A stretch of 64,000 nt of DNA from Amyelois transitella (taxonomy: Eukaryota > Arthropoda > Insecta > Lepidoptera > Pyralidae): contig NC_083522.1 in the NCBI RefSeq assembly GCF_032362555.1, positions 3,016,001-3,080,000 of the forward strand, in the 5' to 3' direction. Shown here piece by piece: positions 1-51,300 of the stretch (positions within the stretch are counted from its first letter, which is position 1; the number at the start of each line of letters is the position of its first letter). A program made the translations under genes and the position numbers. The notes beneath the pieces are model-generated. The model had not been told where the DNA came from, did not search any database, and saw nothing but the letters and a program-made list of their open reading frames with translations.

Positions 1-122
1 GCAGAAGAAGAAGATTTCTAACGCTAATAAGAATATGCAGTACCTCGCATCTAATTATTTGTGTCAAGTGTTCTTTATGACAAGTAAACAAATTAATTTG
101 TGTGATGTGCTCTTTGTTTTAG

Positions 123-3100
123 CAATTTGTAGTGAAGTATGTGCTAATGTTGTTGAAGTTCAACTAGGGGAAGAGAGAGCAAAAATTGTAGTTCTCAAGC
201 AGCAAATTCAGAGTTTACAGGTATGTTCTTTTTTTTTCTAATATAACCAATATATGTAGAATAATAAGGTCGTGAGAAATGTTAATAATTAAAATAAATT
301 ATTTTGTTATAGGAACAGTTATACGACCTTAATAGGAAAAGTGAAGAGGAAAAGCAATCCTTAGAGAGAGTTGTTTCTGAAAGAGAAAATGAAATTTTCA
401 ATCTGAAACATCGAATCAATGAGGAGATTGAAGAAAAAAACAATTTAAAGGCTCACTTCAGTGATCAAGTAAGCGGGCTTAACAATGAAATGAATGAACT
501 CGAACAGAAATTGACAAACAACACAGAACACTCCAGAAGAATTATTGAAGAAAAGATGCAGGATATTCAAACACTTCAAGAAGAAAAACTATCTTTACTC
601 CAAAGCCTTTCTAATGAAACCACCAAACTTAATGGAATTATAACAAATCTGGTATCAGATTTAGACTCAGAGAGAATATCCAAGGCGAATATGAGAGACG
701 ATTACGAGAATAAGATCATGAAACTAAATGAGAAAGTTTTGAATAGGAATAACGAGTTGGTTGAGCTACAGAACAAGATTTCTGAGGCAGGTGAACGACT
801 AGAGGATCTCCATGCAGATCTTCGTAGAGAGAGACAAGCAAGACAAGATACTATCGAAAAGTATGACATAGAATTAAAACAGGTAAAGGAACAAAATGCT
901 GTCATTGAAAATTTATTGCAAGAAAAAACAAAAGAAGTTGAAGGATTATCTAAGCAGCTGATTGATATTAGTCAATGCAAAGATGAACTTGACAAAACCT
1001 TTGATGAATGTAAACGGACTATTGCCGGCCTTCACGAAAATTGTAAACAACTAGAAGAAACTAAAATTGCCTTACAAAATGAAATAGAATATGGTAATAC
1101 CAAGGTTGAAGATATGCTAAAAGATATTGAAAACATGAGAAAGAAGTTCACTGAAGAAAGGAACAAACTTATGCAAGACATCGATGAGAGAAATGCTACC
1201 ATTAACACTCTCCATACACAACTGCAAAATGAAATCGAATACAAAATGAAAATTCAGCATGAACTAACTTCTTTACAAACATCTAAAATATCTCTATTAG
1301 ATGACATCAACAGTTTGAATGATAAATTGTCAAAATTAAAGAAAGAGATTCAAGATAAAGACCAAACTATTGAAGGTCTAGATTTGTACTTGAAAGAAGA
1401 AAAACATGAAAATGAAAAATTGAAAACTAACTGTGAGAAAATTGATGAAAAGCTAAAAACAGCCAATAATGAAATTATTATTAAAGATAATCACATAAAA
1501 CAAATGCAAAGCACCCTACATAAGAAAATGCAGTATTATGAAGACGAAATACGCAAATATAACCAAAATTTCCAGCTTGAACATAATAAATTACTTACTG
1601 TTATAGAAGAAAAAGGTAGTGTCCAAATTGAACAAGAGTATCTGGCTAAGGAAAAAATTCGGTTAGAGAATTGTTTAAGTGAACAATCTGACGAAATTTT
1701 ACAGTTGCGTTCCGAATGTGAAAACTTTATGGAATTCGTGAAGGAAAACAAAATGGGTATGTAGTTCTCGAATAATAATAGGTATATTATGTTCTATCTA
1801 TACTAATATTATAAAGCTGAAGAGTTTGTTTGTTTGAATGCGCTAATCTCAGGAACTACTAGATCGAATTGAAAAATTATTTTTGTGTTGAATAGACTAT
1901 TTATCGAGGAATGCTTAAGGCTATATAACATAGCTAGCTATATAACGCTGCAACTATTAGGAGCGAAGAAATAATGGAAAATGTGAAGAAAAACGGGGTA
2001 AATTATTCATCCTTGAGAGCTTCAATGATGCCCAAAATAACTATTCCACGCGGACGAAGTCGCGGGCACAGCTAGTTACGACATATAATCTTATAGAAAG
2101 TTATTTATTATTTATTTTTTCAGTGATTGAGTCTTTGGAAAAGAAATTGGACGAAGAAACTGCGCGCCGCATCGAAATAGGCATGGAATTTGATACCGAG
2201 ACGTCTCGTCTAATGGCCAGACTTAATGAAACGGAGAAAACTATGAAAGAGCTCAAATTTAAATCAAACAAATGTATCGAGGAAAAGGAATTAGAGATCC
2301 AAACTCTCAATGTAGAGTTAGTAAAGCTACAGAAGACGATAGCTACTAGTAGGGAAAAAATACTTATTTTAGAAAAAGAAAAAATCGCATTATCAAGTAA
2401 ATTAGACGATGAGGCAGAATACACGAAGAATTTAGAGAAGGAATATCAAAATAAATGCATTACCATGTCAGAAGTCACTGCTGAGCTGAATGGCCAGATT
2501 GATAAGTTTAAAACTGAAAGTGAAAATCTTTTAAAGACTGTGAATGATAAACAAAAAGGTAAATTACTGTTTTTCTTTTTTTTTAGCTTTTATAAAGTGA
2601 ACCATACTAACCTTTGTATTTGCTTTCAGAAATTGTTACTCTTGAAGAGAAGGTGTCTCTACTAAATGAGGAACTTAAAAAGGAAATTCAACATAGAAAA
2701 GAAGCAATTGAAATATTAGAACAAGAGAAGGAGCAGTTACATTTTGTTCTTGAAGATGACAATAGTAATCATGAGGTTATTTTAAAAGAAAAGGATGCTA
2801 TTATCGAACAATTAGAGGATGAACTTAAACTTGGATCACTTCAGTTAGATTCTTTACAGAAAGATTATGAAGAGACCGTATTAACATTTGAAAAATACAA
2901 AGTAAACACACATGAAACTATAGACGCAAAGGATAATCACATTAAGGAATTAGAGAATAGTATTGAACAATTGAAATTGGCTATTGATTCCAACTCCAAT
3001 GAAATGAAAATCATGGAAATGCAGATGACTCAACAAATAGAAGGGCTTCTGAAAGATATAGATAAATGTAAAAGTGAACTGGTTGAGGAAAAAGCCATAA

Positions 3101-6100
3101 AAGATACATTAGAAAGTGAGAAAGCTTCATTGCTTGGTAACAAAGACTTGTTGGAGCGGCAGTTGAATGAAGTGTTTACCGACATTACTGTTATAAAGAC
3201 AGATAAAGATTCACTTGGTAAAACTAATGATATGTTAAGTCAACAGGTGATGGAAGAGAAATCTGCTCGTGCATTTGTAGAAGAACAAATGAAAAGTTTA
3301 CAAGTTGAATGTATAAATTTACAGCAAGAATTAGCGAAAGAAGTTGCCGTTAAAAGGCAGCTCGTTGATGATAATGAGTGTTTGATGCAACAACTGGTTG
3401 AAGAAAAATCTGCGAAGGAACTCGCAGAGCAAGAAAGACAGATTGTACTAAAAGCAAAAGAAGAGTTTGAAAGTAAATTCTCGCATGATAAAGATAATTA
3501 TTCTAAGCAAATAGTCACATTGCTAGAGAAGCATGCTCTTTTAAACAAGGAGCTTGAAAGCGAGAAGATTGCTAAGCAAGCATTAGAAAAAGAAATAGAA
3601 AGATTAGTGCAAGTGTCTAAAGAGCAGTCGCTTTTGAATGAGAGAATTGTTGAAGAAAATGAAAAGTTACGTAAATCGAACAATTCCCTCATTAGTGATG
3701 TAGACGGATATAAGCTTAAATACGAAAATTTGACTGACGAACATCGAATGCTGACTGAAGAGAAGAAAATAATTGAAAAGGTATCAACTGAATTGAATGA
3801 TGCTTTAGACGAAATAAAACGGGATAAGATAGTTGTGGAACAGTTATTTGCCGAAGCGCGTGAAAGGAATGAACAGTATGCCTTGGAAATTAAAGAAAAA
3901 CTGGCTAAACTGAGTGACCTTGATCAGCAGATAAACGAATTGATGCAAAAATGTCAAGGTAAGTTATGATCATATGACTTGTTAAATACCAAGTCATAAC
4001 TAAATAGTTATGCCTGGGTTTTTTTATTTACGAAAATTATTTGTAATAATTTATGTTAAAACTGCATGTTTTATTTTTACAGACAAGGAAGAGATGAATA
4101 CTCAACTATCAAATATGTTAGAAATGGGAATAAAAAAAATATTTGAAGATATAAAAAAGGAACAACTACAAAATGAAGTGTTACAAAAGTTGATTGGTGA
4201 AGAATTTAAAAGCAATCATGACAAATGCGAATGTTTGATCGCTATAGCTGAAACACTGACGACAGAATTATCGCGTCTGAAGAAGATAGGAAAGTCTTTG
4301 AAAGAAGAAAATTCTTCACTTATCGAAATTAAGGACTCGGTTCGTCAGAAGGAACTTATTATACATGAGTTACAGAACGACAATAAGAAACTTCATAATA
4401 TGTTGGACGAAAAGAAAATTGGTCAGTATATTTCCTTTTTGACAGCATTTGCCTTCAAAAATTGAAACTTGACACTAGAAAACTGGACGTGTAACTGTGA
4501 TCCCATTTACTTATAAATTGCTTGTTTTTAAAACTTACTCAATCTAAGATCGAACCACGATGTTATAATCGTACCCCGAATTTTTCAGAGAGGCAAGGAT
4601 TTAACGCTTTGAGCATGATAATGATCTTTACTTTATGTTTTACTGAAGGTCGTCATATGAAAAATGTACAACTTTTTTGATTTCAGAATTAATGAGTCTA
4701 TCTGAAGCGAATACCACTCTAGAAAGCAAGCAGAGAGATTTCCAGAAATTACAACATGAAAATGAACATCTACACAAGGAGTTTGACGATGTGAAAGTAC
4801 AATTAGAAATTGAAATACAATCATTAAATGATAAAATTATTGACAAGGAGATTGAGACTGACAAACTGAAAAAAGACTTAGAATCAAAGGAGTTCGAACT
4901 AAGAGAGTCGAAAAAAGAGAAGGAGATTGAAGTAGAAAAGATGAGGGAACAAGAGTTAGAACTGGAGAAATTGATGGAATCAAAGAAGTTTGAAGTGGAA
5001 CAGTTGAGGAAAGAAAAGGAGTTAGAAGTAGAGAGGTTGAAGGAAACAAAGAACTTAGAACTGGAACGGTTGAAGGAAGCGAAAGAGCTTGAGGTGGAAA
5101 AATTGAAACAGAATTTAGAGATAGCACAGCTTGCTGATAATATAACACACAAGCTGCAAAATGACTTAGAAGCAAAAGAGCTAGAAATGGAAAGGTTGAA
5201 AGAAGTGAAGGAGGCGGAAGTTGCGAATTTGAGACAGAAGTTAGAGACAGTAAAAAGTACTGAAAAATTAAATGACAAAATAAAAAAAGACTTAGAAGCA
5301 AAAGAGTTAGAACTGGAAATGTTAAAGGAAGCTAAAGAAGCGGAGGTGCAAAGGTTGAAACAGAAGTTAGAGGCGGCAGAACGCGCTGCTGATATGACCG
5401 AAATACTGAAAAAAGACTTGCAAGCAAAGGAGTTAGACCTAGAAAAGTTGAAGGAAGCAAAAGAAGTAGAAATGAAAATGTTAAAACAGAAATTATTAAC
5501 AGCAGAACATGCTGAAAATTTGGTAGACAAACTTAAAAAAGACTTGCACGCGAAAGAGATGGAAGTGGAGATGTTAAAACAGAAGTTAGAGACGACAGAA
5601 AATGCTGAGCATATGACTGATATTCTTAAAAAAGAATTGGAAGCAAAAGAGTTAAAACTTAAATGTTTTAAGGAAGCGCATGAGGCAGAAGTGCAGAGCT
5701 TGAAACAGAAATTAGAGGCAGCAGAATGTGGTGAAAAATTAACTGATAAACTGAAAAAAGACTTGGAGGCGAACGAGTTTGAAGTGGAGATGTTAAAACA
5801 GAAATTAAAGAGGGTAGAACATGTAGAAAATATGACTGACAAACTAAAAAGAGACTTGGAAGCGAGGGAGATACAGATGGAAAGGTTGAAGGAAGCAAAG
5901 GAGTTTGAAGTGGAGAGGTTAAGAGAAGAAAATGAGTTAGAACTGGAAAGGTTGAAGGAAGTAAAGGAGATTGAAGTGCAGAGGTTGAAACAAAAGTTGG
6001 AGATGTTTGAGCGTGATGAAGCGGCAAAGGCGCTGAGGAATGAAAAGGAGGCGTTGGTTAAAGCTGCAGGAGGTCACGTCGATACATGTAAGTTATTTAA

Positions 6101-21500: not shown

Positions 21501-24500
21501 AAAAAATTAACAAGAATGTGGCGACCACGCAGCGGCTGCTCGACAACATTCATTTATATAAATGCGCCCTTATTCAAACGACTAGATGTTACTATCTCTG
21601 GATTTTAATGTCATCAGGTTATTGTGTGGGTATTGTCTTTGCTACTTTTCCTACTAATAAACATTTATATGGGTGATTCTCCACTATCGGGAAAATCAAT
21701 GTCCTGAGCAATTTTTAGAATTGTGTGTGGCTATGTTTTTCAAACGATCATTTAATAAGATAGTACAATAAAAGTTCTTTCTAAGCTACCAATTTGTAAA
21801 TAAAAAGAGATTCCCGATTTTTACGAAATATCTTTTCAAAAACCCCAAAAACAGTCCCCTGACCTGTCCCCATTCCAGATTTACAGTTTCTACCAAGACT
21901 TTTTTCTAATTTTGTCCAAAATATGTAGTATTCACAAATACTGTTCTAATGTATGATAAATGAACATAATAAATATTCTGGAATATATTTAAATTTAAGT
22001 TAAATAATAGAAAAATTTTAACTCTAAAGTTTGTCCTAACAATTTGTGAACAGTACCCTGTCATGAATAAAACAAACGAAAAAAAATAATCTAATAGAAG
22101 TAACATATTGCGTTAGCGTGGAACGGAACGACATAGTTGTGAAGTTCGTCCGTATAACAAGTTTGTGTGACCAGCCGCCATCTTCCTGTAGTGCGAAGCA
22201 AGTGTTGAGGCGAACACGTGCCGCGGCCGGATCAAATAACAGTCCCTTGGGTATGTGTTTTATTTTATCATTTTGAAAGATAAGTTAATGAATTATTCGT
22301 AATTATTATGTCATAATCTCTTGTTGAATATGATATTTCGCAATTTTTAAGTAGTACAATGCTATTGCAAATAATCCGAATTTTAGGTTAAATAACCAGT
22401 CCCCTGGCGACAGTCCCCTGTATATTTGAGCGACAGGGGACTGTCTTATTACACAGGGGACTGACTTTAGTTATTTTTTTCTCAGGTAAACTTCACAATG
22501 CCGCCTCAAAAGAAGACTAGGGAAGAAGTATTAGAAAGGAAGAAAGAATTAGAACGTTTAAGATATCAGCGCCTTAAAAATGATCCCCAAAAGAGAGAAG
22601 AAATGAAAGAAAAAGAACGTCTTAAGTATCAAAAGAAAAAAGAAAAAGGCTTAAGAAAACTCGTACGAGACATGACTCCACGTGAACACAGAACTGCAAA
22701 AAAAAATTGGAAAAAACATTGTACTGATTATCGGGCTAGGAAAAAGACATTGAAGGAAACAACTAATGCTTTTGTGAGAGACAACACTCCAAGTTCAGAG
22801 ACTGAGATTTCAGCACCTCCTACAACTGACAATTCTGCAAATAAAAAGAGAAAAAGACATGCGAAGCTATTAAGAGAAAAAGCGAATAGAGACAAAGACA
22901 ATAAGATACTCGAATATAAAAGAAAAGTCGAAAAGTATAAAAAAAGACTGTCAAGACTCGAAAAAACTATAAACCAAAATAAAGATGAAACACCTAACAC
23001 GAAAATTAACAGAATGATTGATGATTCTAACTCGAGAAAAGAAATTGTGAAAAAAGCATTGTTCGGCGAGGTGATGAATAAACAATTGAAAGAAAATTAT
23101 TCACAATTAAAGACCCAAAAAGACAAACAAATATTTTCAAAAGTTGTTGCTGGGACATCAGTACATAAATACAAACTATGGACTACCAAAGACAGTGCTA
23201 TTAACTATAAAATGACAAAAAAATGGAAACCATCTCCTTCTTTGGAAATGCCTAAACGAACACGAATTGACAAAATTTCGAAGAGATGTGCAAAAGTGAT
23301 TAGAGAGTTTTATGAGGATGACAGCAATAGCAGACTAGGTGCTGGAAAAAAGGAATTTATTACAAGAAATTCAATCAAGCATCAAAAACGCTATCTACAA
23401 GATACAGTGCTGAGCTTGTACAAGAAATTTGTAGCTAGTAATTTCAAAATAAGCTATCAAATGTTCTGTCGTTTGCGTCCTTTCTGGGTTGTCAAGCCAA
23501 AAGCTCAAGACCGTGACACTTGTCTTTGTGTCACTCACGCCAACATTGACTTAAAGCTGTCTGGTTTACACGCGGCAAAAATATTGTCGTATAACAGCTA
23601 TCAGAAGTTACTAGAAAATTTATGCTGTGATCGCTATAATGTGGAGTGTTTGTCAAGAAAATGCCTAGTGTGCAATAACAGAACCCCTGCCTACAATGAG
23701 TTTGATGACAACAAACCTATACAATACAAGAAATGGGTATCTGAAAAACAAGAATATTTGGATCCAAAATCTAAAAAGCCTAAGCTAGTGACTAAACACC
23801 TTAAAAAGACTTTGACGCTGCGTCCGCGAGAGTTGATACATGAATTGCATGCTGACCTAGACAAGTTCTTTTGCCACCAAAGAAACATTGTACATCAATT
23901 CAATGCAATCAAACATTTGAAGGAAAATCTTGGCGAAGAAGATATTTTGATACACATGGACTTCTCCGAAAATTATTGTACCAAATACGGAGAAGAGATT
24001 CAACCCTTCCACTTCGGAGGATCTCGAACTCAAATAAGTATTCACACAGTTGTTGTGTATCTCAAAAACTCAATACAATCCTACGCCACCATTTCCAAAA
24101 ACTTGACGCATTCACCCTCAGCTATTTGGGCGCATTTGCAGCCAATTTTCCGAGCAATACAACCTGGAATTAAATATGTTCATTTCCTTAGTGACGGGCC
24201 GGTTACACAATATCGGAACAAAACTATGTTCTTTGTTTTGGCCTCGAGATTATCCAAAGATATTCCAAATCTACAAGGATTTTCGTGGAATTACTCGGAG
24301 GCCGGACATGGCAAGGGTGCACCAGATGGTGTTGGTGCTACTTGCAAGAGGACTGCGGATGCTGTTGTAGCTGCTGGAGGTGATGTCGATACCCTGGAAC
24401 AATTTGTGGAAGTCATCCAAGCTAGATGTCCTGGGATTATTTTCCATACAATAAATGACGAAGATATTCAATCAATTACTGATGCCATTGAAAAGACTTC

Positions 24501-27500
24501 CAAACTAAAAAGTTTTAATGGAACATTAAAGGTGCACCAGATCACTGGAATATCTACTTCCCCAGCAGTTTTGACAATGAGAAGTTTAAGCTGTTTTTGC
24601 CCTAATACCTGTCAACATTATAAAATTGGAACAATTAATTACAACCAGAAAATGAAGCTTCGTGTTCAAGACATTTACACCGAATCTGAAACCTCTTCAT
24701 CCGAGGATGATAATGCCCTTGATATGTTTGAAATCGAACCTTCATATGCGACCAAGCCACGAACTGATAGTCCTGTGGAAGAAATGGAAGCGGGACCTTC
24801 CCGAGATAACAACGACAAGTATAATTGTGGAGACTATGTATTAGTTAAGTTGCAGAGTAAACATACTGAATACCGTTATGTTGCGGTCATAAATAAAATT
24901 GATGAAGAAGATGGTGAATTCACTGTCACGTTTTTAAAACTCTGTGATAAAGAAGGACTGACTTTTAAAGTAGACGAAGAAGATGTTTCTGATATAGCCT
25001 TTGAGCAAATTATTAAAAAGTTGACTAATCCGGACTTGATCCTAAAAGGGAAAAGAATCTTTTATAAATTTAATACACCGGTTAATATTTTTGAACAGTA
25101 ATGATGATACATGATAATTATAGGATTTTCAAGAGCTGATCTCTAAGATAACTCACTTAAATTGAGACTGATTTTACTACTTAGAAGGTGTAAAAATTAA
25201 AATAAGCATAAAAGCAACTGATGTCAAAGACCAGAAATTGAAATTTTAAGACTGATTTAACTACCTGATACTAGTGTATAAGAGAATAAGTCAATTAACA
25301 ATGATAATTATATGTTGTTTTGTTTCATTGATCTCAATTTAAAATGCAAAATATTAGTTACTAATTGATAGATGTAAGAAGAAAATGTTGATTATAAACC
25401 TATGATTCGAAGAACGTTTAAAACGTTTGCCAAAAAATATTTAAAGCAAAGTGAAAGACTTAGTTAATTTCTTTGAAGTTTATGAGAAGTTTTTTTAGTT
25501 TATGTTTATTTGTTCTTAATTGGATGTTCAATTTCTAAAATAAAGTTTATTTGTAATGAAAACTATCTTGCTTTTGTGTAAAAATCATTCCCCTGTCATA
25601 TGTGTCAGTCCCCTGTCATGATTTTTCATTAAATCGTGGATAATTCCTAAAATATAAAAAAAATGAAGTGGTTGTCAATTATATAGTTTAAAGCTTGAAT
25701 AAATTTAGCTTTCTATGTAGGAAAAACTATCATTTAGCAAAAAAAAGTATCAGGACAGCTTTGTATGGGCCATTTTCCCATTAGTAGAGAAGTACCCATA
25801 TATTTACGAGGGAAATACCCGTCAGATAGAAATACACCACAGCTCACAGACTCGCTGCAAGTTGTGCCTCCTATAACGCACATATAAAGTTTATAGAGTT
25901 CGTTAAATATAATGATAATGAGTAATATTTTCCTACGACTATATATAAAATTCTCACAATGTTCATTCCCGAAACGGCTTGACCGATTCTCATGAAATTT
26001 TGTTAGAATATTGAGTAGGTCTGAGAATCTGCCAACATCTATTTTTCATACCCCTTAGTGATAAGGGTTGTCCACCCGTAACATTTTTTTTACTAGAAAT
26101 TACTTAAAAAATATTTATATGGCAAAAGAACGTATGCCGGGACAGCTAGTAATATGTAATAACTGCTTATTATCCAGGAAACACCTGTCAAACGTAAACC
26201 AGAGTCGGACAAAGAGGAAGCGACAATAGCCCTCCGGACTCGATCCAAATTGAGTCTTTCCGAGACTCCCATAGAGCATATAGAGAGCTCGTTCGTTCCT
26301 CCCGACGACATCCCCGGCCCGGTCGATGACCTCTGGAACCAGTTCCTGGCGGAGTGCCTGGACCCCGGGCAGGCGGCGAGGCACGAAGATGATGATGAAG
26401 CGGATCCCGAGTACAATGTGGCCGCCGATCCTGATGCGCGTGAGTTTCAATACGAACATAGCCATGATCTTAAAACAACATCAGTTAATAACATGATAGA
26501 ATACATACATACATACATATAATCACGTCTATATCCCTTGCGGGGTAGACAGAGCCAACAGTCTTTTAAAGACTGATAGCCACGTTCAGCTATTTGGCTT
26601 TAAGATAGAATTGAGATTCAAATAGTGACAGGTTGCTAGCCCACCGCCTTAAAGAAGAATCCCAAATTTATAAGCGTACCCCTCGATAGAATACACGTTA
26701 TTAAAAACAACATCACGTAATTTTTTATTTTTGACGCCACAAATGTTTTGTATTAAATGGATGTCGTAAAAGGAATAGGCGCACATTCATCTAATGCTAG
26801 CTTCTACGCTGGTCTAATAGCGAAAAGAAAACGTGTGTGCTAACTGTTAATAACTGGAATTCAACATTTAGGTAATGGGCTAGCAATCTGTCACTATTTG
26901 AATCTCAATTTAATATTTGGGTCATACAGTTAAACATGGCCTTTCAGTCTTCAACACTGTTGTCTAATCACATACAAGAGATGCTAAGGCAGTAACAAAA
27001 GTCGTAGTTCTGTTATAACTTTCAGTGCGACCAACTTGCGGGTGAGATGAATCTATACTAATATTATAAAGCTGAAGAGTTTGTTTGAACGCACTAATCT
27101 CAGGAACTACTGGTTATAATTGAAAAATTCGCGTTTAATTGACCATTTATCGAGAAAGGTTTTAGGCTATATAATATCACGCTGCAACTTTAAGGAGCAA
27201 AGAAATAATGGAATATGTGAAAAAAACGAGAGAAATTATTGATCCTTGAGGGCTTCAATGATGCCCAAAATAACTATTACACGCGGACGAAGTCGCGGGC
27301 ACAGCTAGTAATAAATAAAAGCATATAGATAACAGAATTATTGTTACGGCCTTAGCTTCTCTTGTAGGTGATAGTGAAGATTTCAATAGCTTTATTTTAA
27401 ATGTTCCGCGAAATGCATGTATGTATTTATGTATGTGTCTTAAAGATGACGAAGATGAAGAGGCGCTAGAGAACAACATCATCAAGATATCTAGGAAGGA

Positions 27501-36500: not shown

Positions 36501-39500
36501 ACGTGGCTGTGAAGGCCGTATTTTCTGATTGGAATATTGTTTTCTTAGGGCTGATATAAATACCGATCCCGTAGCACCAGTATCTAATAACACGACGCAA
36601 CATGTTCCAGTCATCCCATATGTCATAGCTCCGAGCAGGTGAATGTTTTTATTATTTATTTTTTATTTATATTTTATTTATTATTTATTTATTTACGCCA
36701 AAAATACAACGGTATTAGTACACCTCTTACAGTATTTGGCAAAAAGTATAACAAAATAAAATCTTGACAGTCTTCATTTCAAATAAAAGGACAAATAATA
36801 AGTATAATATGGGTAAGAAACAAAGAAGTTACTTACAGAAACAAACAAGTTGAAGAACATTCACCTTAATATAATGTGAAACGTATAACACTTTTATTGC
36901 ATGCTATATTTTATTAAGCTATATATTTTTATCCTCGTTATACTTATTCACATTCACACTATTAATAAAGACAAATGATTTGTATGTTTGTAACGAATAA
37001 ACACAATAACTGCTGGACTGATTATCACGAAATTTGATACAGATATAGAATAGACACACGGAAGTGAAGACAGACGAAAGTAAAAGCCCGCGTAAAAGCC
37101 AGTAGTTTATAAGGCGTTAAGGCAACCTTTTGTGTTTCACTGTTGTATTTTTTTTTTCTTTCTAGTAAGTTCTCTTGTGCCATTGGTAATAAAATAACAC
37201 TTAATACTCGCTAATTTCGCTTAATTAATTTATAACGTTTACATCAGATGGCAAGTGTGATAGTGATATTGAAAGGAGAGTGAACGCGGGGAACAGTGTG
37301 AATGGAGCTTTGCATGCCTTTATGAGCAGTCAGAAACTATCCAAAAAGGCTCGACTGCCTGTGCATAGGGGCGTGTTGGTCCCGACATTAATGTATGGGA
37401 GTGAAAGTTGGGTATGGCAAAAGAAGCACGAAAGCAGAATAAATGCAGTGGAAATGAGAGCGTTAAGGAGTATGTTGGGTGTGAAATTGAGTGACCGGAT
37501 AAGGAACAGCGTGATAAGGGAATGTTGTGATGTGAAAGAAGATGTAGTTACAGGAATAGAAAAGGGTATGTTGAGATGGTTCGGTCATGTGGAGAGGATG
37601 AATGAAAACAGGTTGACTAAGCAGATATACATGGAGGGTGTGGAGGGAAAGGTCGGAGTGGGAAGACCTAGACGAACGTATCTTGATCAAATTAAGGACG
37701 TCCTGGTAAAGGGTCAGGTCAAAAGTACCCGAAACCGCCGAGCTTGCATGAAGAGAGTTATGAATGTGGATGAAGCGAAGGAAATATGAAGAGATCGTAG
37801 CAAGTGGAAAGAGGTAGTCTCTGCCTACCCCTCCGGGAAAGAGGCGTGATTTTATGTATATATGTAATTTATAACTGTCTTCATGCAAACTCGTCGATAA
37901 AGGGTACTGACCTGACCTTCTGCCAGGAGGTCCAAACGAATGTACTTAGGTACAATTCAATCCAGATTTAATCAGACCTTGGTACATTTGTCTGGACCTT
38001 ACCCTATCAACGTTCCCAAAATTATGATTATAAAAATGCTGGTCTGTTCTATTTTGGATTGTTGTTTTTTCTTTATAAATAATAATGTTAGTCTTATAAC
38101 AGTGTATTTATTTCTAGTGCCGACCAATACATAACAGTTCTTACACTGCCCAGCCAACCTCAATCTCTGACATTAGGAGTGCCGAATGACAACACACCTC
38201 GGGCAGAAATCAACTCGGATCAATCGTGCAGGTATTTCTTTATGCATTTAATTAGTTAGGAGGTAAAACAATCTTGAAATGTTTTTATGAGAAAAATACA
38301 TAAATAAGCTATAGTTAAAAGTAAAAGTAGGACAGACATCTGTTATTTTGCCTTATAACCATAAAAAAATACTTAATAGGACACTTTGAGACGAAAGATG
38401 AAATGACCTATATTTTCTAATTAAAGGCACAATTTACCAACTTTTATATTATCTAATCTATCTATTTCACGGCCTCTGTGGCGCAGCGGTAGTGCGCTTT
38501 TCTGTGTCACCGGAGGTCCCGGGTTCGAATCCTGGCCAGGGCATGATGAGAAACGAACTTTCTCTGACTGGCTTTGTCAGAGAAAGTTCGCTGAACTTTG
38601 TCTTGGATGTTTATCTATGTATATAAGTATTTATTCTAAAATATATCTAGTATCGTTCAGTTACTATCTCGTAACACAAGTTTCGAACTTAATTCGAGGC
38701 TAACTCAATCTGTGTTATTTGTCCCGTATATATTATTATATATCTTAATAAAACTTTTCATAGGAACTCGCAAACATCTCAAGTTACAAACGCAACGCAA
38801 GAGCTCGCTCCACGCTCTCAAATACCAAATGCGACTGACACCGTGCTTAGTAAAGGCCACACATCTTGCAGTGACGACGAAGAAAATATGCCTCTGCATA
38901 GAGTTAAAGCTGCGCTTTACCACGAGAGATCTCAAGGTAAATGCGATAATGCGGTGAGCGACCCGTGCCAAGACAAATTTGGAGATTCTGGTAATGATTC
39001 TGATGCAACACTGTGTAGTGATAAGTCTTGTAAACGAGAACATATTGAGGAATCAGGTTGTGAACAAGAAATGGATACTTGTGAACAAGAAATGGATACT
39101 TGTGAACAAGAAAGGGTTACTTCGGCCAATGAAGAAAGAATTTGTGAAGAAAAAACAGATGCTCCGCTTTGTGCAGACAAAACTTGCGAACAAGACTTGG
39201 ATGCTACGCTGTGTGAAGACGCAACTTGTGAACAAGAACAAATGGATGTGACGCTAAAAGGTGATGATCAGATGCAAGTCGATTACGAGGCTGATCATTC
39301 GTCAAGGTAAATTTCTTTGCTTATATAAGAAGAATTTTCTGACCACCCTAGGCTAAATGGCGCTATTAAAGTTTTTACGGATTGGAGAGTAAATACAATT
39401 TCGTTTTTACAATTGAATCGATATTATGGTAGGTCGTTATATTTTGAAAATTTTGCTTTATAGATATATGCCTTTAGCTCGAACATGATAAATGTGATAA

Positions 39501-40554
39501 AAATAGTGTTAACCCAAATTTGAGAGCTCTATTTTGACTTACCTACCACCTAACCTAGTATCAGTAACCTAGTACTTAGCATACCTAATATCTTAGTTCA
39601 GTTGGAATCTGAAGCTGCTCTTATTTATAAAACAATATAAATTTTAAAAAACAAATTAATGTTGTAATGATTAAAAATGTGTTGTCTCGTATTATTAAAT
39701 TTTCAGTGGTGAAGAAGAAGAAAACGCTAGTGACACGGAAAGTCGGCTCGTAATTAAAGAGGAACCGGAGGAAGAAATGGGAGATGTATACGGAATAGGG
39801 AGCAACATACAAATTTTCATCAGTGACGTTAAATCTGTAAGTACATCCATACTAATATGATAGTCGATAGATGAAAAAATATAGTAGATTAGTTTAGTCC
39901 ATGTGGTTCCCGACATTTTAGAATAGGATCACTCCCTCTCCCATGGGTCTCGTAAAAGACGCAAATAAAAATGCACAGCTGATAGCATGAAGCCTTCTAT
40001 TAACAGTCTCGAAAAGACCATGTTCAGCTGTTTTGCTTTATGATAGAACTGAGATTCAAATAGTGAGAGGTCGGTAGCCCATCGCCTTAATGCGTAATAA
40101 CATGCCTATTCCGAAGTCGTGTTTTACGACATCCATGGGAAAGAGATGGAGTGGTCCTATTTTTTTTTCTATAAGTGTGGGCAACTATAAACACGGCATA
40201 TTTATATTCATACTAAGTTTATTTTCACAGGAGCAAGAATCAGACGACTATAGTGCTGTAGAAAACCCAGAGGCTGCGAAATATGAAGAATCTCATAGAG
40301 ACGCCATAGAGTCTGATGACGGAACAGTCAAGTCAGAGACTGCAGAGTGGCAGAGAGACGAAGATAAAGTAATTTTGCAAGTCATTAGAGATAATATTGT
40401 GATGGGAAACTTCGGAGACAAGACTATTGTGGAGTTACTTGAGGAGAAACAAATGATACATTTGCTATCGGAAAGTTTGACTCACAAATCACCAAATGAA
40501 ATTAGAAATAGGATAATTTATTTAATAAAAATGCTTGCGATAAATAATAATTAG
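18566..40554 (+). CDS. GON4L: GON4L/Mute-like chromatin and transcription regulator
   Basis: 24 coding exons: 18566-18648, 19234-19366, 19640-19752, 20551-20725, 21171-21302, 26178-26439, 27446-27606, 28011-28327, 29129-29297, 29678-29809, 29994-30130, 30859-30885, 31033-31194, 31546-31759, 32527-32670, 32850-33849, 34313-34587, 35201-35388, 36131-36226, 36549-36638, 38118-38231, 38764-39306, 39707-39836, 40231-40554. They sum to 1707 codons with every phase agreeing. Family landmarks: LELTPIKHIPVKTRPEVKAL then DEDDDEYQPTHDDVP (exon 4), the glutamine-rich LQQQLRQHIQLAASNF helix (exon 10), the LIALGLHQF block (exon 14), a PAH-like region with LFRDFLPFLTKDQA (exon 17), and a C-terminal SANT/Myb-like domain (WQRDEDKVILQVI). 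The human homologue acts with YY1, Sin3 and HDAC1; Drosophila Mute is a histone-locus-body protein. The start is the first ATG in the frame of exon 1 (MDSSTQDDTEK). Exon 12 is a 27-nt microexon. Confidence 0.93.
18688..18827 (-). mobile_element. SINE-like retroposon, decayed fragment
   Basis: A diverged reverse copy: AAAGCCAACAGT, then CGCCTAAAAGAGGAAT. Both ends are lost. It lies in the first intron of GON4L. Confidence 0.4.
19499..19583 (-). mobile_element. SINE-like fragment
   Basis: GCTAGCCCATCACCTTAAAG, then AGAATCCCAAGTTTATTAGC, corresponds to the middle of the SINE family at 8163. It is intronic in GON4L, between exons 2 and 3. Confidence 0.4.
22397..22463. repeat. Cluster of CAGTCCCCTG repeats, two direct and two inverted
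   Basis: CAGTCCCCTG at 22397-22406 and 22411-22420, and its reverse complement at 22434-22443 and 22454-22463, lie just before the transposase start. Other copies are at 21852-21861, 22240-22249 (one change), 25586-25595 (CATTCCCCTG) and 25606-25615. The arrangement resembles subterminal transposase-binding sites. Confidence 0.75.
22498..25101 (+). CDS. Putative DDE transposase (867 aa) of the intronic transposon
   Basis: Intronless ORF with ATG in context TTCACAATGC. Residues 1-180 are Lys/Arg/Glu-rich helix, probably DNA-binding or nuclear-localising. A Cys-rich segment begins at C342 (CLCVTH) and continues with CCDRYNVEC and CLVCNN, possibly binding zinc. The core carries HMDFSENY (D488), LSDGPVTQYRNK (D566) and WNYSEAGHGKGAPDGVG (E601). 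These are spaced D-77-D-34-E, as in RNase H-fold transposases and integrases. A short CFCPNTC motif follows, then an acidic linker, and residues 777-867 form a separate mostly beta C-terminal domain (CGDYVLVKL). I know this HGKG-x2-DG protein type only as uncharacterised proteins in animal genomes and cannot place it in a named superfamily. Catalytic roles are inferred from spacing only. It is not a GON4L exon. Confidence 0.8.
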   Translation: MPPQKKTREEVLERKKELERLRYQRLKNDPQKREEMKEKERLKYQKKKEKGLRKLVRDMTPREHRTAKKNWKKHCTDYRARKKTLKETTNAFVRDNTPSSETEISAPPTTDNSANKKRKRHAKLLREKANRDKDNKILEYKRKVEKYKKRLSRLEKTINQNKDETPNTKINRMIDDSNSRKEIVKKALFGEVMNKQLKENYSQLKTQKDKQIFSKVVAGTSVHKYKLWTTKDSAINYKMTKKWKPSPSLEMPKRTRIDKISKRCAKVIREFYEDDSNSRLGAGKKEFITRNSIKHQKRYLQDTVLSLYKKFVASNFKISYQMFCRLRPFWVVKPKAQDRDTCLCVTHANIDLKLSGLHAAKILSYNSYQKLLENLCCDRYNVECLSRKCLVCNNRTPAYNEFDDNKPIQYKKWVSEKQEYLDPKSKKPKLVTKHLKKTLTLRPRELIHELHADLDKFFCHQRNIVHQFNAIKHLKENLGEEDILIHMDFSENYCTKYGEEIQPFHFGGSRTQISIHTVVVYLKNSIQSYATISKNLTHSPSAIWAHLQPIFRAIQPGIKYVHFLSDGPVTQYRNKTMFFVLASRLSKDIPNLQGFSWNYSEAGHGKGAPDGVGATCKRTADAVVAAGGDVDTLEQFVEVIQARCPGIIFHTINDEDIQSITDAIEKTSKLKSFNGTLKVHQITGISTSPAVLTMRSLSCFCPNTCQHYKIGTINYNQKMKLRVQDIYTESETSSSEDDNALDMFEIEPSYATKPRTDSPVEEMEAGPSRDNNDKYNCGDYVLVKLQSKHTEYRYVAVINKIDEEDGEFTVTFLKLCDKEGLTFKVDEEDVSDIAFEQIIKKLTNPDLILKGKRIFYKFNTPVNIFEQ
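25931..26149 (+). mobile_element. Helitron-like element
   Basis: It contains CTATATATAAAATTCTC near the start and CATACCCCTTAGTGATAAGG inside, and ends ATGCCGGGACAGCTAG followed by T (26150). This is a second Helitron type, distinct from the one at 1797. It lies 28 bp upstream of GON4L exon 6. Confidence 0.65.
26506..26684 (-). mobile_element. SINE-like retroposon, 5'-truncated, with target duplication
   Basis: A reverse copy lacking its 5' third, flanked by an exact 11-bp direct repeat GATAGAATACA (26495-26505 and 26685-26695). Truncation at the 5' end with intact flanking duplication fits target-primed reverse transcription. Confidence 0.85.
26756..26983 (+). mobile_element. SINE-like retroposon, decayed
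   Basis: Forward fragment with GGATGTCGTAAAAGG and GGGCTAGCAATCTGTCACTA, interrupted by unrelated sequence. It lies in GON4L intron 6. Confidence 0.5.
27052..27308 (+). mobile_element. Helitron-like non-autonomous element
   Basis: Close relative of 1797-2075. It starts TCTATACTAATATTATAAAG and ends CGGACGAAGTCGCGGGCACAG then CTAG, between A (27051) and T (27309). Confidence 0.8.
28797..29065 (-). mobile_element. SINE-like retroposon with target duplication
   Basis: Full-length reverse copy of the family at 8163, flanked by an exact 13-bp direct repeat GAACTATATAATA (28784-28796 and 29066-29078). It lies in GON4L intron 8, close upstream of exon 9. Confidence 0.87.
29323..29585 (+). mobile_element. 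Helitron-like element with altered 3' end
   Basis: It starts TCTATACTAATATTATAAAG like 1797 and 27052, but after GATGCCCAAAATAACTA the usual hairpin is replaced by a diverged CAACCCCGGCTTTGCACAGA segment. It lies in GON4L intron 9, only 25 bp after the splice donor. Confidence 0.7.
30121..30200 (+). repeat. Four tandem 20-bp units, each carrying a splice donor
   Basis: The unit AATATATACAGTAAGAAATG is repeated four times with few changes. The first unit contains the real exon 11/intron 11 junction (ACA|GTAAGAA, donor at 30131). Matching donors follow at 30151, 30171 and 30191. Confidence 0.85.
30319..30501 (-). mobile_element. SINE-like retroposon, shortened
   Basis: Reverse copy with an (ATGT)n tail at the left and internal deletions. 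Flanks TACGAAGATAC (30308-30318) and TATGAAGATAC (30502-30512) resemble an 11-bp target duplication with one change. It lies in GON4L intron 11. Confidence 0.7.
31270..31521 (+). mobile_element. SINE-like retroposon next to a splice acceptor
   Basis: Full-length forward copy with an exact 11-bp target duplication TTTATATATCT (31259-31269 and 31522-31532). The right duplication ends only 13 bp before GON4L exon 14 (31546). Confidence 0.87.
31777..31945 (+). mobile_element. RTE LINE 3'-end fragment next to a splice donor
   Basis: About 170 bp of the RTE 3' end including the (ATGT)n tail, flanked by an exact 11-bp duplication TAATTTTGTTA (31766-31776 and 31946-31956). It starts 17 bp after the end of GON4L exon 14. 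Confidence 0.85.
31968..32170 (+). mobile_element. SINE-like retroposon, decayed
   Basis: Forward fragment with GGGAACCACACGG at the left and CTACCCCGCAAGGGATATAG at the right. The middle is rearranged. Confidence 0.5.
32233..32283 (+). pseudogene. Decayed duplicate of the end of GON4L exon 14
   Basis: Within the intron after exon 14, this segment repeats the last ~50 bp of that exon (31698-31749). It shares TCGCCAATGTGAA and CAAGAGAAT and is preceded by a pyrimidine tract and CAG. A one-base deletion in the AAGTA.. part shifts the frame compared with the exon, so it is not a usable alternative exon. Translated, the first 11 residues still resemble MLMSHLANVKK. Confidence 0.7.
34084..34270 (-). 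mobile_element. SINE-like retroposon, decayed
   Basis: Reverse copy with ATAATCACGTCTATATCCCT at the left, and AATAGTGACAGGTCGCTAGCC inside. The 5' part of the SINE is missing. It lies about 40 bp upstream of GON4L exon 17. Confidence 0.6.
36073..36638 (+). repeat. Tandem duplication containing GON4L exons 19 and 20
   Basis: Exon 19 (36131-36226, 96 nt) and exon 20 (36549-36638, 90 nt) encode near-identical peptides (ADKNTGPVPP.. and ADINTDPVAP.., both ending IAPSR). The upstream intron segment is copied too (36073-36130 and about 36400-36456, sharing AATTAACTGG and ATCTGATATA). The second copy has about 90 extra bases between the duplicated acceptor and exon 20. Confidence 0.8.
37237..37864 (+). 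mobile_element. RTE LINE, 5'-truncated, with target duplication
   Basis: It corresponds to the last ~630 bp of the RTE at 47322-49808 and differs at few positions. An exact 11-bp duplication TAATTTATAAC flanks it (37226-37236 and 37865-37875). Its reading frame has an early stop where the full copy reads VCRDRGKW. It lies in GON4L intron 20. Confidence 0.87.
38470..38660 (+). mobile_element. tRNA-derived SINE
   Basis: The first ~70 bp are tRNA-like with an A box (TGGCGCAGCGGTAGTGCG) and a B box (GGTCCCGGGTTCGAATCC). A unique body with a 14-bp hairpin (GAACTTTCTCTGAC) follows. The acceptor-stem ends do not pair, so it is not a tRNA gene. A reverse copy lies at 63390-63535. It lies in GON4L intron 21. 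Confidence 0.75.
39055..39115 (+). repeat. 21-bp coding tandem repeat in GON4L
   Basis: Three consecutive units of about 21 bp encode CEQEMDT, CEQEMDT and a changed CEQERVT. Looser CEQDLDAT and CEQEQMDVT units follow in the same exon. The region is acidic and Cys-rich and looks unstructured. Confidence 0.8.
39897..40200 (-). mobile_element. Rearranged SINE-like copy
   Basis: The left part (39897-39960) matches the 5' end of the SINE in forward orientation. The rest (40003-40200) matches the reverse orientation. It may be a fold-back or two nested copies. It lies in the last intron of GON4L. Confidence 0.5.
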
Positions 40555-45314: not shown

Positions 45315-48300
45315 TTAGAACATGTCCATGTCATCGTTGCACATCACTTCTAAGTAGTCGTCGTCGTCGTAGTCCTGCAGAGGGCGCTCCGTTCGGTCCG
45401 GCAGCGGGGAGGCGGGGCGCGCGGGGGACGGGGCGCTCGCGTCGTGCGGGCCGTCCGCGTGGCCGTCAGTGTCGCTCGAGCAGTCGCGGGCGTCGGTCGC
45501 GGGCGACGGCGGCGGGTTGGACCCGTGCTCCGACTGCACTGTCGCCTCGCCTCGAGATAGCAGTGAGGGTAGTTCAGAATCTGTTAAAGACACGCATGTT
45601 AGGTTATCAAATGGCAGAATGTTGTTTGATGGGTATGGAATGTAAGAATTAGAACATTAAATAAAAGCGAAACAACGATAGTTTGTCGCGCGATAAAGAC
45701 TGCGTCGCGCGTGCCAGCTACAGGGGCAAGTTCTCATTTGTCTTGTCTACTTACAACTGAGGCATGATTTTGTCGCTGCTCCAAGAGTGAGAGGCAATAA
45801 CTTATTATCCTCATGCTGGCAATTAGGTTTGAAAAGTTGTCGTTATTGAAGAAAATTCTGAAGTACAGGGTATTATTGCTTCTTCTGCACTGACGTTTAG
45901 GAAGAGGTAGTAAACATAATTTTAAGTAATTTATTTGATATCAACCAATATTGTGGAACCAAAATCTATGACAATTATTAAGTTAATATGTTTGATAAAT
46001 GTTCCATAATAATGAATTTTTTTTTTTTTAAAGGGAAGTTTGTTTACCTTATCCCCTATTCTAGGGAGGGTTAACGATACACGATAAAGAGAAGTATATA
46101 AAACTGCATGAACCTGTAAGACTCTGCTTCAACTGCTCCATGACTTTCTGGCGGCTCTTGGCGCGTGCCTTCTTGATGCGGCGCGCGGTTTCCCTGCGGT
46201 CTTCGTTGAAGATCTGATTCACCATCTCCTGAGAGATGTCCACGTCACGTTTCAACAGGAAGAAGTACACGCCACCTGGTGTACGGCGACGCGTGCCGTT
46301 CTGTATTTAAAAATTTTTCAAATCATCTAAATGTTCCATACTGTACAGAGTCGCGGTTAAAATTCGTGATGCGCAAAAAGGAACAGGGTCAAATCCCACG
46401 TCAGCCATGTACCAATGATTATTTTCGAATTTATATATGTATACACTAGCTGTGCACGCGACTCCGTCTGCGAGAAATAGTTATTTTGGGCATTATTGAA
46501 GCCCTCAAGGATGAATAATTTTCCCTGAAAACACATTCTTTATTTCACATTCTTTATTATTTTTTCGCTCCTAATAGTTGCAGCGTGATGTTATATAGCC
46601 TAAAGCCTTCCTCGATAAATAGTCTATTCAACACAAAAAGAATTTTTTAATTCGAACCAGTAGTTCCTGAGATTAGCGCTTTCAAACAAAGAAACAAACA
46701 ATCAAACAGACAAACTCTTCAGCTTTATAATATTAGTATAGATTTGTTTGAATACTAACCGATGCTTCCATGGTGGGGGAAAACATCGTGAACCTGCATT
46801 TTATTATTAGCCTGCATGCATAGCATTTTTTTTATTAATCTACATAGTGAATGTGTTATATTAGGCCACTTACCACCACCAGCATGCCTCCATCTGCTTC
46901 CACCCTTTGTGTCTCTTTATATATTTCCATAGCTTTGTGGGCACCAATTACTTGAACAATCCTCGCTGTAACAAGATAAATATAATAACCATTTGTTTTA
47001 TTATTTGCTAATGTGAAGATATTTCTACATTCTGCTGAGGAAAATTACAGGAAATGCAATTTAATTATAAATACCGTAATTAGGCATGTTTGTTTCTTAG
47101 ATGTCCCGAAATTTTCGCGGGAAAACAGGTCATTGTGCGTACGAATTCACGGGCAAAGGTTATCTTAAGAACGCCTAAGCCTTTAGGAGTAGAGAGAAGA
47201 ACATTAGTACTTAATAAATGGGTGCGTTTCAGCCCAGTCCCATCAGGACGAAATGCATAATGACTCAGAACAATAGTCAATTTAATATTGTATGGTTAAT
47301 TAATAAAAGTGTTTGGTAAATGGGTCTGGTAAGTGGGATCTTTTTGTGTCGAACTCAATGTTTCAACATAAAGAGATCCACACCTACACAAGAGTGGAAG
47401 GTATTTTAAAAAGTATGATAGACTTTGTGATTGTAGATGAAAGATTGAAGAACAAAGTGCTGGATACCCGTGCATATCGCGGTGCTGGCATTGACTCGGA
47501 CCATTTACTGGTGATATCCCGGATAAGGGGTATCTTCAATCGCTGGCGGCACAAGGTAAGGGAGCAAACCAGCGCTTTGGAAAGAGTAAAAGTAGAAAAT
47601 TTGCAAGATATGGATGTAGGTAAGAAGTATATTAATAGAATGAAGGATGAATTTGAATATTTAGATGAAATGAGCGATATTGAAGATGGATGGAAGGAAT
47701 TTAAAGAAAGAATTGTGAAAGTAGCTGTTGAAGTGTGTGGTGTAAGTAGAAGAAGGAAAGGAAAAAATCACAAAAATGCGTGGATGAGTAAAGATGTGCA
47801 AGAACTTGTGCGATTAAAGAAGAAAGCATGGCTGGATTTGTTAGCAGCAAAAGCTAACTTAAGAATGCAAGAGGTTATAGATGAAGATGTGAATGAAGCA
47901 CGTAAGGAATATAAGAAAATGAAAGATTTGGTTAAGAAAGCTGTGATTAGAAAGAAAGAAGAGTATAAAGAGGATTTTGATAAAAGGCTATCAGAAGACT
48001 TTCAGTCAAATCTGAAAGTATTCTGGAAATCCGTAAGGTCAGCCCGAGGAAATACTATAACCAGAGAGCTGACTAGGATCAGATGCCAGGATGGTAGCGT
48101 TGTGAAAGGAGAAGAATGTGTACTAAAGATATGGAAGGACTATTTTGAAAGTTTATTTGAAAAAAAGGAAGGAAATAAGAAAGATTTCTGCTATAGCGAA
48201 GAAAAAGAGAATGAGATGGAAGGCGAAATTGAAATGTTCGAAATTGTGGAAGCACTTAAGAGTATGAAAGCGGGAAAGGCTGCTGGGTGTGATAGAGTGT

Positions 48301-51300
48301 CGGTCGAGATGCTTAAAGCAGGAAAAGGCGTAGTAGCTAGTCAGTTGTACTGCCTTTTCAATTTGTGTTGGAGAAGCGGCCGAGTACCAAAAGATTGGTG
48401 TAAGGCTGTTATCGTGCCACTTTACAAAGGAAAAGGGTCACAGCTGGACTGCAAAAATTATCGTGGTATAAGCCTGCTTAGCGTCGTCGGCAAATTGTAT
48501 GCTAAGGTATTGATTAATAGAGTCAGGAATGAAACTGATGACAAAATATGGGATGCTCAAGCGGGATTTCGAAAGGGAATGGGATGTACTGATCAGGTCT
48601 TTTCCTTGCGGTGCATAGCCGAAAAGTTTTTGGCCAAGAGTCAAAAAGTCTATTGCACATTCGTAGATCTGGAAAAGGCCTATGACAGAGTTGAGAGGAA
48701 TGAATTGTGGTCAGCACTTTCTATGCATGGGGTGAGCAGTCTCTTAATACGAGCACTGAAATCCTTATATGAGGATTCGAGTGCTTGTGTCAGGATAAAC
48801 GGAGCGCACACTGAGTGGTTTAAGATTGAGAAAGGCGTTAGGCAAGGATGTGTTGCGTCACCGTGGCTGTTCAACCTATTTATGGATAGCTGTTTGACAG
48901 ATTTGAAAGAGTCTAAAAGTGGATTAAGGATGAATGAGTTACTCGTCAAATGTCTGCTCTATGCCGACGATCAGGTTATACTGGCGTCATCAGCGGAGGA
49001 GTTACAGGAGATGGTAAACTGTATGCATGAAGCTTTAAAAGAGAAAGGAATGAAAGTGAACGTAAGTAAAACTAAAACACTGGTTTTTGAAATGGAGAAA
49101 GAAATGACAGCATGTAATATTTTGATTGGAGGAGAAAAAGTGGAGCAAGTGAAAGAGTTTGTATATCTAGGATCAAAGTTTACATCAGATGGCAAGTATG
49201 ATAGTGATATTGAAAGGAGAGTGAACGCGGGGAACATGGTGAATGGAGCTTTGCATGCCTTTATGAGCAGTCAGAAACTATCCAAAAAGGCTCGACTGGC
49301 TGTGCACAGGGGCGTGTTGGTCCCGACATTAATGTATGGGAGTGAAAGTTGGGTATGGCAAAAGAAGCATGAAAGCAGAATAAATGCAGTGGAAATGAGA
49401 GCGTTAAGGAGTATGATGGGTGTGAAATTGAGTGACAGGATAAGGAACAGCGTGATAAGGGAATGTTGTGATGTGAAAGAAGATGTAGTTACAGGAATAG
49501 AAAAGGGTATGTTAAGATGGTTCGGTCATGTGGAGAGGATGAATGAAAGCAGGTTGACTAAGCAGATATACAAGGAGAGTGTGGAGGGAAAGGTCGGAGT
49601 GGGAAGACCTAGACGAACGTATCTTGATCAAATTAAGGACGTCCTGGTAAAGGGTCAGGTCAAAAGTACCCGAAACCGCCGAGCTTGTATGAAGAGAGTT
49701 ATGAATGTGGACGAAGCGAAAGAAGTATGCAGAGATCGTGGCAAGTGGAAAGAGGTAGTCTCTGCCTACCCCTCCGGGAAAGAGGCGTGATTTTATGTAT
49801 GTATGTATGTTTGGTAAATTAACCTGGCCAGTGTTTAACAGGCTGCTTCTCATTGGATATAGCCCATGAAAATATTTCAAGAGTACTCACCTATTAAATC
49901 TTTCTTCTCCTCATCAAGTTTTACAGCAATATCACTGGCAACTCCATCTATCGAGTCCTCAGTGGTAACGGACAGATCTGGCAAATACCTAGGCTTCTGT
50001 TTCTCCTCCAAGTGCCTGTGGCTGTTAATTCGTTTGCCGAGCCTTAATTTCACATTAGACCGTTCTTCATTTGTCCTCTTATTCGATGACCTTTCCCGAT
50101 CATCACTACTATTGGAAAATACTTTCTTAGATATATAGTCATCATCTAACCTATACTTAATAGTATAATCATAAGATTCAACGCCGTATCTGCTTTTTTT
50201 TGACACATCACAGGTGACCATATCTTCCGTAAGTAAGTCCTCCTGGAAATATTATTGTTATGTTAATCTGGTTCTTTTCATATCTCACTAACCAAGAGGA
50301 TAATCTGGGGTTGCCTTATTTAACAAGATCGAAAAATTAAGGATTTCTTTTGCTTTACCTTCTTCTGGCAACTACTACAAGTTATCAATTAATTTGCATG
50401 TAATTAATTGACTGATAAATTTTTTATTCTAAAGCTGTCATTACATAAAGTGAAAAGTAAACATATTAACTTACACCTTCCTAGTTAAACGTCATGATCA
50501 GTTTTGAAAAATAATAACTAAAGATAAAAAAGATACAATAGATAAAAGAATACAACCACTCCATCTCTTTCCCAAGGATGTCATAAAAAGCAACTAAGAG
50601 AATAAGCTTATAAAGTTGGAATTCTTCTTTTAAGCAATGGGCTAGCAACTTGTCACTATTTGAATTTAAATTCTATCATTAAGGTAACCACTGAATGTGG
50701 CATATCTGTCTTTTCAAGACTGTTGGCTCTACCTACAAGGAATAAAGACATTATATGCGTGTTATTACTAAAGACAACAATTTATACCTGCAATGCTGTG
50801 CACCAAACATTATATTTGTTTTTCTTTTCTTGCTGTGGCGGTGGTTGTGGTCGCCGCGGACGAACCTTCAACCGCTTAGGGCGACGCCGGGGTTCGTCAT
50901 CTGACTCCGATCCTGACGACTCCTGCGGCGACGCCTCGTCACTCTGCTCATCTTGGATTTGCATGTGAACTAACGATGGAGGATTGAACGTATCTGGTCG
51001 CTCCAGGGGTATATAAGCACCCTCTTCAACGTCGGAATCATCCAACTGGAAAAGAAAGAAGGCATTAGCAACTTTTTTAACAACCTACTTATTACGACGC
51101 AAAAATAATTTTTATCATATAATAAAAAGTTATTGTTACGATGTTTGGTAAGTGAATTACTAAGCATTACTTATACTTTAATTTTAAAGCGGTAAATAAG
51201 TTATTCGATAGAAATACTGGAAAAAAAATCTATGTTCAAAGCAAATCTGTAAACCATTAATCTAACCTCCCCATCCTCTCGTTCGTTACTGATTTCAACA

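Follow-up and report, generated by a model that had tools for sequence, protein, structure and literature searches.

What kind of mobile element occupies positions 21671 to 25797 of this 64,000-nucleotide stretch of the Amyelois transitella genome (contig NC_083522.1; the whole stretch is hereafter the window), and how might its transposase recognise its own ends? A preliminary description, drawn from the letters alone, had read it as an intact DNA transposon of unassigned type, possibly representing an undescribed superfamily. Our analysis indicates an autonomous element of the cut-and-paste type that has been active recently and probably belongs to the Sola2 group. What is new here is that several related families carry family-specific motifs at fixed distances from the element ends, while the letters of the motif change from family to family. 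The transposon is real, precisely delimited, recently active and probably of a known group, and it is the spacing of its internal sites that is worth following.

The element, its ends and its copies

21671..25797, forward strand: complete transposon, 4127 bp, delimited by alignment of host-genome copies at 99.8-100%
21667..21670, no strand: left target duplication ATAT, same as the right flank
25798..25801, no strand: right target duplication ATAT, pairing with the left flank
21671..21696, forward strand: left terminal inverted repeat, GGGTGATTCTCCACTATCGGGAAAAT, 21/26 identical to the right end
25772..25797, reverse strand: right terminal inverted repeat, 21/26 identical to the left end
22498..25101, forward strand: transposase gene, a single open reading frame of 867 amino acids (aa), as first described

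The host genome (327 Mb in 33 contigs, the window being part of contig C18) holds ten full-length copies, that in the window included, together with one internally deleted copy (L034). The full-length copies span bases 1-4127 of the predicted interval, which makes its coordinates correct to the base, and the 4-bp flanks are identical in all eleven (ATAT in eight, with ACCT, ACAT and AGTT in the others, none of which is AWWT). The pattern common to all eleven is ANNT, and the chance of identical 4-bp flanks is about 0.005 per copy from base composition alone. The ATAT duplication, initially offered as possible, is therefore real, and the collection of further copies that had been suggested as a check fixes both the ends and the 4-bp duplication. 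An empty site is also available: copy L024, flanked by AGTT, is inserted in a repeat, a second, element-free copy of which is continuous through a single AGTT. The inverted ends are imperfect over 26 bp, as had been claimed. With up to three mismatches allowed, their shared pattern occurs in the window only at the two ends and in 0/100 shuffles, and in the host genome at 29 places, against five for a reversed control. Exact ends number 22 in the host genome, forming 11 pairs, and the left 530 bp used as a query recovered the same 11 genomic places.

The element has been active recently. The ten full-length copies differ by a mean of 1.80 substitutions per pair, with a maximum of four over 45 pairs, and the 867-aa frame is kept in eight of them; one copy encodes 864 aa after an in-frame 9-bp deletion and one is frameshifted. 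In one of these copies, L017, the frame is whole and a single inserted base lies upstream of it.

Searching the host genome with the protein returned at least 59 matches, among which are at least nine more families at 30-62% protein identity, several of them in near-identical copies. As some host-genome families combine frames of 819-1167 codons with near-identical copies, more than one may have moved recently. Identical 4-bp flanks are found in 4/4 copies of L029-L032 (ATAT three times, CTGT), in both copies examined of the L043 family (ATAA, AGAA), in both of the L037 family (CAAA, TATT) and in both examined of a family encoding 1116 aa (ATAT, ATTT); the L040 family has ATAT in 2/2, which by comparison is not distinguishable from the element ends. 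Among these, CTGT, AGAA, ATAA, CAAA and TATT fall outside ANNT. A 2-bp duplication with T...A ends was considered and rejected, being incompatible with CTGT, AGAA and CAAA. In the multi-copy families the exact end was set by eye, on inverted-end symmetry within the shared block. For L026, L027, L028 and L038, each a single copy, the search itself required a matching duplication, which hence is not independent evidence. The ends of L035 were not found. Taken together, the multiple copies and the sister families of the same design bear out the description of an intact, autonomous cut-and-paste element, and with it the proposed link between protein, inverted ends and target duplication.

More distant relatives were sought in other collections. 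A motif scan of contigs from 84,980 prokaryote species gave two matches, one of which (L013) is due to chance. The other, L014 (JAAEPJ010000558.1), encodes a full-length 690-aa relative (27% identity over 402 aa, E 9e-30) and has inverted ends starting GGGCAATTCCAT, together with a subterminal motif of its own; the contig is filed under a bacterial metagenome-assembled genome and is probably eukaryotic contamination. No relative emerged from a protein search of the same prokaryote contigs, from a viral contig collection searched by protein and by alignment, or from plasmids and phages searched by tblastn. Twelve viral loci drawn from the motif pattern included no relative by tblastn (best E 0.44); a corrected pattern had no match in the viral collection, and one additional motif pattern likewise gave no match.

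The transposase and its placement

23521..23673, forward strand: cysteine/histidine cluster C342 C344 H347 C377 C384 C389 C392, 7/7 residues in 15/15 alignment rows
23959..23961, forward strand: D488, putative first catalytic aspartate, 15/15 rows
24193..24195, forward strand: D566, putative second catalytic aspartate, 15/15 rows
24298..24300, forward strand: E601, the third residue as first proposed, less likely catalytic, 14/15 rows (alanine in L014)
24325..24327, forward strand: D610 in HGKG-x2-DG, more likely the third catalytic residue, 15/15 rows

The conserved residues were read from a 15-row protein alignment that omitted both near-identical and broken copies (the latter L036 and L042), as well as matches whose sequences were not retrieved. 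L028 was used only after its stop, and L075 equals L078 in the stretches shown, such that the rows are not all independent. The C342-C392 cluster probably binds zinc. With regard to catalysis, the triad D488, D566 and E601 that had been put forward is correctly positioned, and its two aspartates are invariant; the glutamate, however, gives way to D610 as the favoured third acid, and the triad is probably D-77-D-43-D rather than D-77-D-34-E. We prefer D610 because it is invariant and lies near a predicted helix, whereas E601 is replaced by alanine in L014 and falls in predicted coil, the structural part of this argument coming from a low-confidence model. E638, another candidate for the third position, was rejected as it is not conserved in the alignment.

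In that model, built for the core from two sequences (pLDDT 42), D488 terminates one strand, D566 comes right after a second, and a helix begins two residues past D610, while E601 is in coil. The order, at this low confidence, reads strand (D488), strands, helix, strand (D566), helix (after D610). An RNase H fold carries its acids on strands 1 and 4, and the third is expected on or close to the helix after strand 4, according to the partial text of PMC5718144. The modelled order fits this requirement for DDE/D enzymes, at a pLDDT of 42 and with no significant match in the fold search.

The superfamily is probably known, with Sola2 its likely home, a placement made by published descriptions and not by sequence comparison. 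In the excerpts available, Sola2 is described with an 888-aa transposase, ends of 12-21 bp and 4-bp duplications AWWT, ATAT, AAAT and ATTT (PMC3627910), and the Sola superfamily with a DDD triad, a 4-bp duplication and a size of mostly 2-9 kb (PMC10741241). The assignment is favoured because the AT-rich 4-bp duplications, short ends, protein of some 870 aa and invariant D-D-D all fit. Duplications of 4 bp flank all eleven copies of the window family and 12/12 examined copies of five other multi-copy families; ATAT accounts for 8/11; the ends measure 26 bp with 21 matching, against 12-21 bp in published examples; the element is 4127 bp long; and the predicted triad D488, D566, D610 is present in 15/15 rows, where E601 is present in 14/15.

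Several observations weigh against this reading of the locus. No transposition has been observed, and the Sola2 placement is a fit to published descriptions. The two structure predictions are of low quality (pLDDT 40 and 42), and fold searches with both gave no match at E <=0.001. Searches with Pfam, NCBIfam and PHROGs profiles and against PDB sequences returned no significant match to the protein, nor did the Ginger-type integrase (rve) domain appear in the Pfam search. Moreover, L014 has similar ends and non-matching 4-bp flanks.

Some of these points would suit an undescribed superfamily that has its 4-bp duplication in common with Sola by coincidence, as no profile or PDB search put a name to the protein and Sola is matched by description and not by alignment. 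We consider this quite unlikely, and the novelty first claimed is not supported: protein length, short ends, AT-rich 4-bp duplications and three invariant aspartates fit the Sola and Sola2 descriptions, so far as their text is available, closely. To our knowledge, 4-bp ANNT duplications are not the rule in hAT, P, MuDR, Kolobok or Dada, which counts against a known superfamily with the C/DxxH signature other than Sola. Such a placement is very improbable: the histidine H604 is invariant after the second aspartate, as in those groups by the partial account in PMC9587614, but three residues before it the alignment has E in 14 rows and A in the remaining one, in no row the C or D of the signature, the downstream E638 is not conserved, and the Pfam search shows none of the five domains.

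Subterminal sites at kept distances

The sequence CAGTCCCCTG, which the preliminary description did not list, occurs nine times with one mismatch allowed in the 64-kb window, always within the element, where 1.2 copies are expected; 0/100 shuffles reach nine.

21852..21861, forward strand: subterminal site 1, 182 bp from the left end
22051..22060, forward strand: site 2, 381 bp from the left end, one mismatch
22240..22249, forward strand: site 3, 570 bp from the left end, one mismatch
22397..22406, forward strand: site 4, 727 bp from the left end
22411..22420, forward strand: site 5, 741 bp from the left end
22434..22443, reverse strand: site 6, 764 bp from the left end, reversed
22454..22463, reverse strand: site 7, 784 bp from the left end, reversed
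25586..25595, forward strand: site 8, 203 bp from the right end, one mismatch
25606..25615, forward strand: site 9, 183 bp from the right end

By eye, a possible intron in the 5' untranslated region (GTATGT...TTTCTCAG, 22251-22485) precedes the transposase start and would contain four of these sites.

Every family shows a distinct 10-bp motif within both of its arms. In counts of 9-mers in the arms that ignored position, six of seven elements with known ends had a 9-mer present at least four times and the seventh, L038, three times, against a highest count of two to three in 200 resampled controls each. When up to two mismatches are allowed, the sites of five families (the window family, L026, L027, L028 and L029) map to 182-184, 380-381, 569-571, 725-728 and 740-743 bp from the left end, with the reversed sites at 760-765 and 780-785 bp; on the right arm they map to 202-204 and 182-184 bp from the element end. 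Exceptions are L028, which has no match at 381 and 741 and an extra site at 164 from the right, and L027, with 224 and 244 instead of 203; four two-mismatch matches lie inside reading frames, in the window element, L026 and L029.

The DNA between these sites is nearly unalignable (ungapped identity 0.28-0.39, against 0.30 when shuffled, over about 630 bp and ten family pairs), and this bears on whether the spacing reflects constraint or merely an order inherited through shared ancestry with few insertions and deletions. Two pairs, window/L026 and L027/L029, lend the latter some credence, as they keep a raised inter-site identity of 0.39 and can be aligned over a few short segments, most of which lie at the sites. 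Yet the remaining eight of ten pairs stand at 0.28-0.35, and over 785 bp their sites still differ in position by no more than a few bp. In the same five families the distance to the start codon varies from 828 to 1156 bp; length changes therefore do occur outside the site region. We accordingly rate inherited order as unlikely.

A wider test took the commonest arm 9-mer of each of the ten other families whose ends are known, used all its exact sites, and compared the number within 6 bp of the window positions with random placement; several 9-mers tied as commonest in L026, L037 and the 1116-aa family, and one was taken. Five families agree (P 0.003 or less), two are marginal and three do not. 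The sites in register number 7/7 in L026 (P 1e-5, the test floor), 6/6 in L029 (P 1e-5), 4/4 in L028 (P 3e-5), 4/6 in L027 (P 1e-4) and 3/5 in the L040 family (P 3e-3). The case for a shared spacing is diminished by the marginal results for the L037 family (2/3, P 0.011) and the 1116-aa family (2/5, P 0.047), by the absence of significance in L038 (1/3, P 0.15), the L043 family (1/6, P 0.20) and L014 (1/6, P 0.38), and by the relatedness of the families, owing to which these tests are not independent. With two mismatches, the L043 family has sites at 180, 567, 721, 735, 778 and 796 bp, as well as a right-end array in steps of about 20 bp, the right end there having been placed two bases too far out. 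L014 has in common the right-end site at 183 bp and shows pair distances of 14 and 21 bp.

Whereas the ten-family test weakened some families, two deletion derivatives strengthened the spacing pattern. L068 (C20:9230594-9232095), a non-autonomous relative spanning 1502 bp and flanked by a GTAT duplication, matches the protein over just 46 residues; its sites lie at 182, 374, 563 and 719 bp from the left and at 203 and 183 from the right. L069 (C19, with an end at 5832763) is a deleted relative of L026, 1357 bp long, with an ATCC duplication and no protein match, and has sites at 182, 380, 570, 725 and 740 bp from the left, with two more, 1145 and 1165 bp in, that lie 203 and 183 bp from the right end. 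The reversed pair (764/784 bp) is absent from both elements. Because the two derivatives keep spaced sites on both arms, the subterminal sites would appear to act in cis during transposition, the reversed pair being perhaps dispensable or regulatory.

That seven of the nine sites lie upstream of the ATG, and that neither derivative has the reversed pair (764 and 784 bp), could instead point to a role in transcription of the transposase gene, whether as promoter or in self-repression, and not in a transposition complex. This, too, is an unlikely account: two sites stand beyond the 3' end of the gene, close to the right terminus, distances are held to the element end and not to the ATG, and L068 and L069, which are unable to make the protein, retain sites on both arms.

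With respect to the wider setting, the preliminary description had placed the element within GON4L; the one piece of support found for this is a Myb-domain match below threshold, at 40078-40551 of the window. A long frame with a reverse transcriptase domain occupies 47307-49790 (Pfam RVT_1, E 2.5e-41), and by eye the piece at 37229-37789 resembles it.

A possible measuring of the ends, and its parallels

In the mechanism that we propose, the protein would fold as an RNase H-like transposase using D488, D566 and D610, excise the element at its GGGT...ACCC ends and join it to targets cut with a 4-bp stagger, as the ANNT of all eleven window-family copies suggests. It would further recognise the family-specific 10-bp motif at sites of fixed distance from both ends, which would allow subunits of the transposase to come together on both arms in a set geometry, with the letters of the motif drifting along with the transposase while the distances stay. 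Sola2-type transposons may, in other words, measure their own ends, by means of ordered sites at kept distances whose sequence is replaced, together with the transposase, from family to family; we advance this tentatively, as a possibility short of probable. The outermost sites are nearly equidistant from the ends (182 and 183 bp), some pairs are about 20 bp apart, or two helical turns, and the long steps, at 154-199 bp, come close to the length of a nucleosome. These three features suggest that a large complex forms on arms whose geometry is fixed, perhaps with the DNA in nucleosomes, and the spacing may amount to a code for the transposition complex. No earlier report of fixed subterminal spacing was found in the parts of the Sola and subterminal-repeat literature at hand, although one may exist.

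We know of no Sola transposon that has been studied at the bench. Eight near-identical copies with the full 867-aa frame make the group testable in ordinary cell assays, and the site spacing provides a concrete and cheap test of how a transposase can change along with its binding sites without altering the geometry of the complex.

Among known systems, Sola1 and Sola3 have ends and target preferences that differ from those of this Sola2-like element; at the level of the superfamily, the partial descriptions give them the same 4-bp duplication and DDD transposase. The closest likeness is to Sola2 (867 aa here against 888, with ATAT duplications and short inverted ends in both), and the three invariant aspartates correspond to the DDD stated for Sola, in the available portions of PMC3627910 and PMC10741241. 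The element also has family-specific subterminal sites at fixed distances, which the available parts of the Sola descriptions do not mention. The P element likewise holds binding sites or repeats in its interior, set distances away from the ends, but differs in its 8-bp duplications and THAP domain, where the present protein has no Pfam match. The same absence of a Pfam match separates it from piggyBac and piggyBat, whose target, TTAA, is also unlike that seen here. The activity of piggyBat is nevertheless restricted by the transposon's own ends, to go by the title of PMC11707139, a paper in which the term subterminal repeats also occurs.

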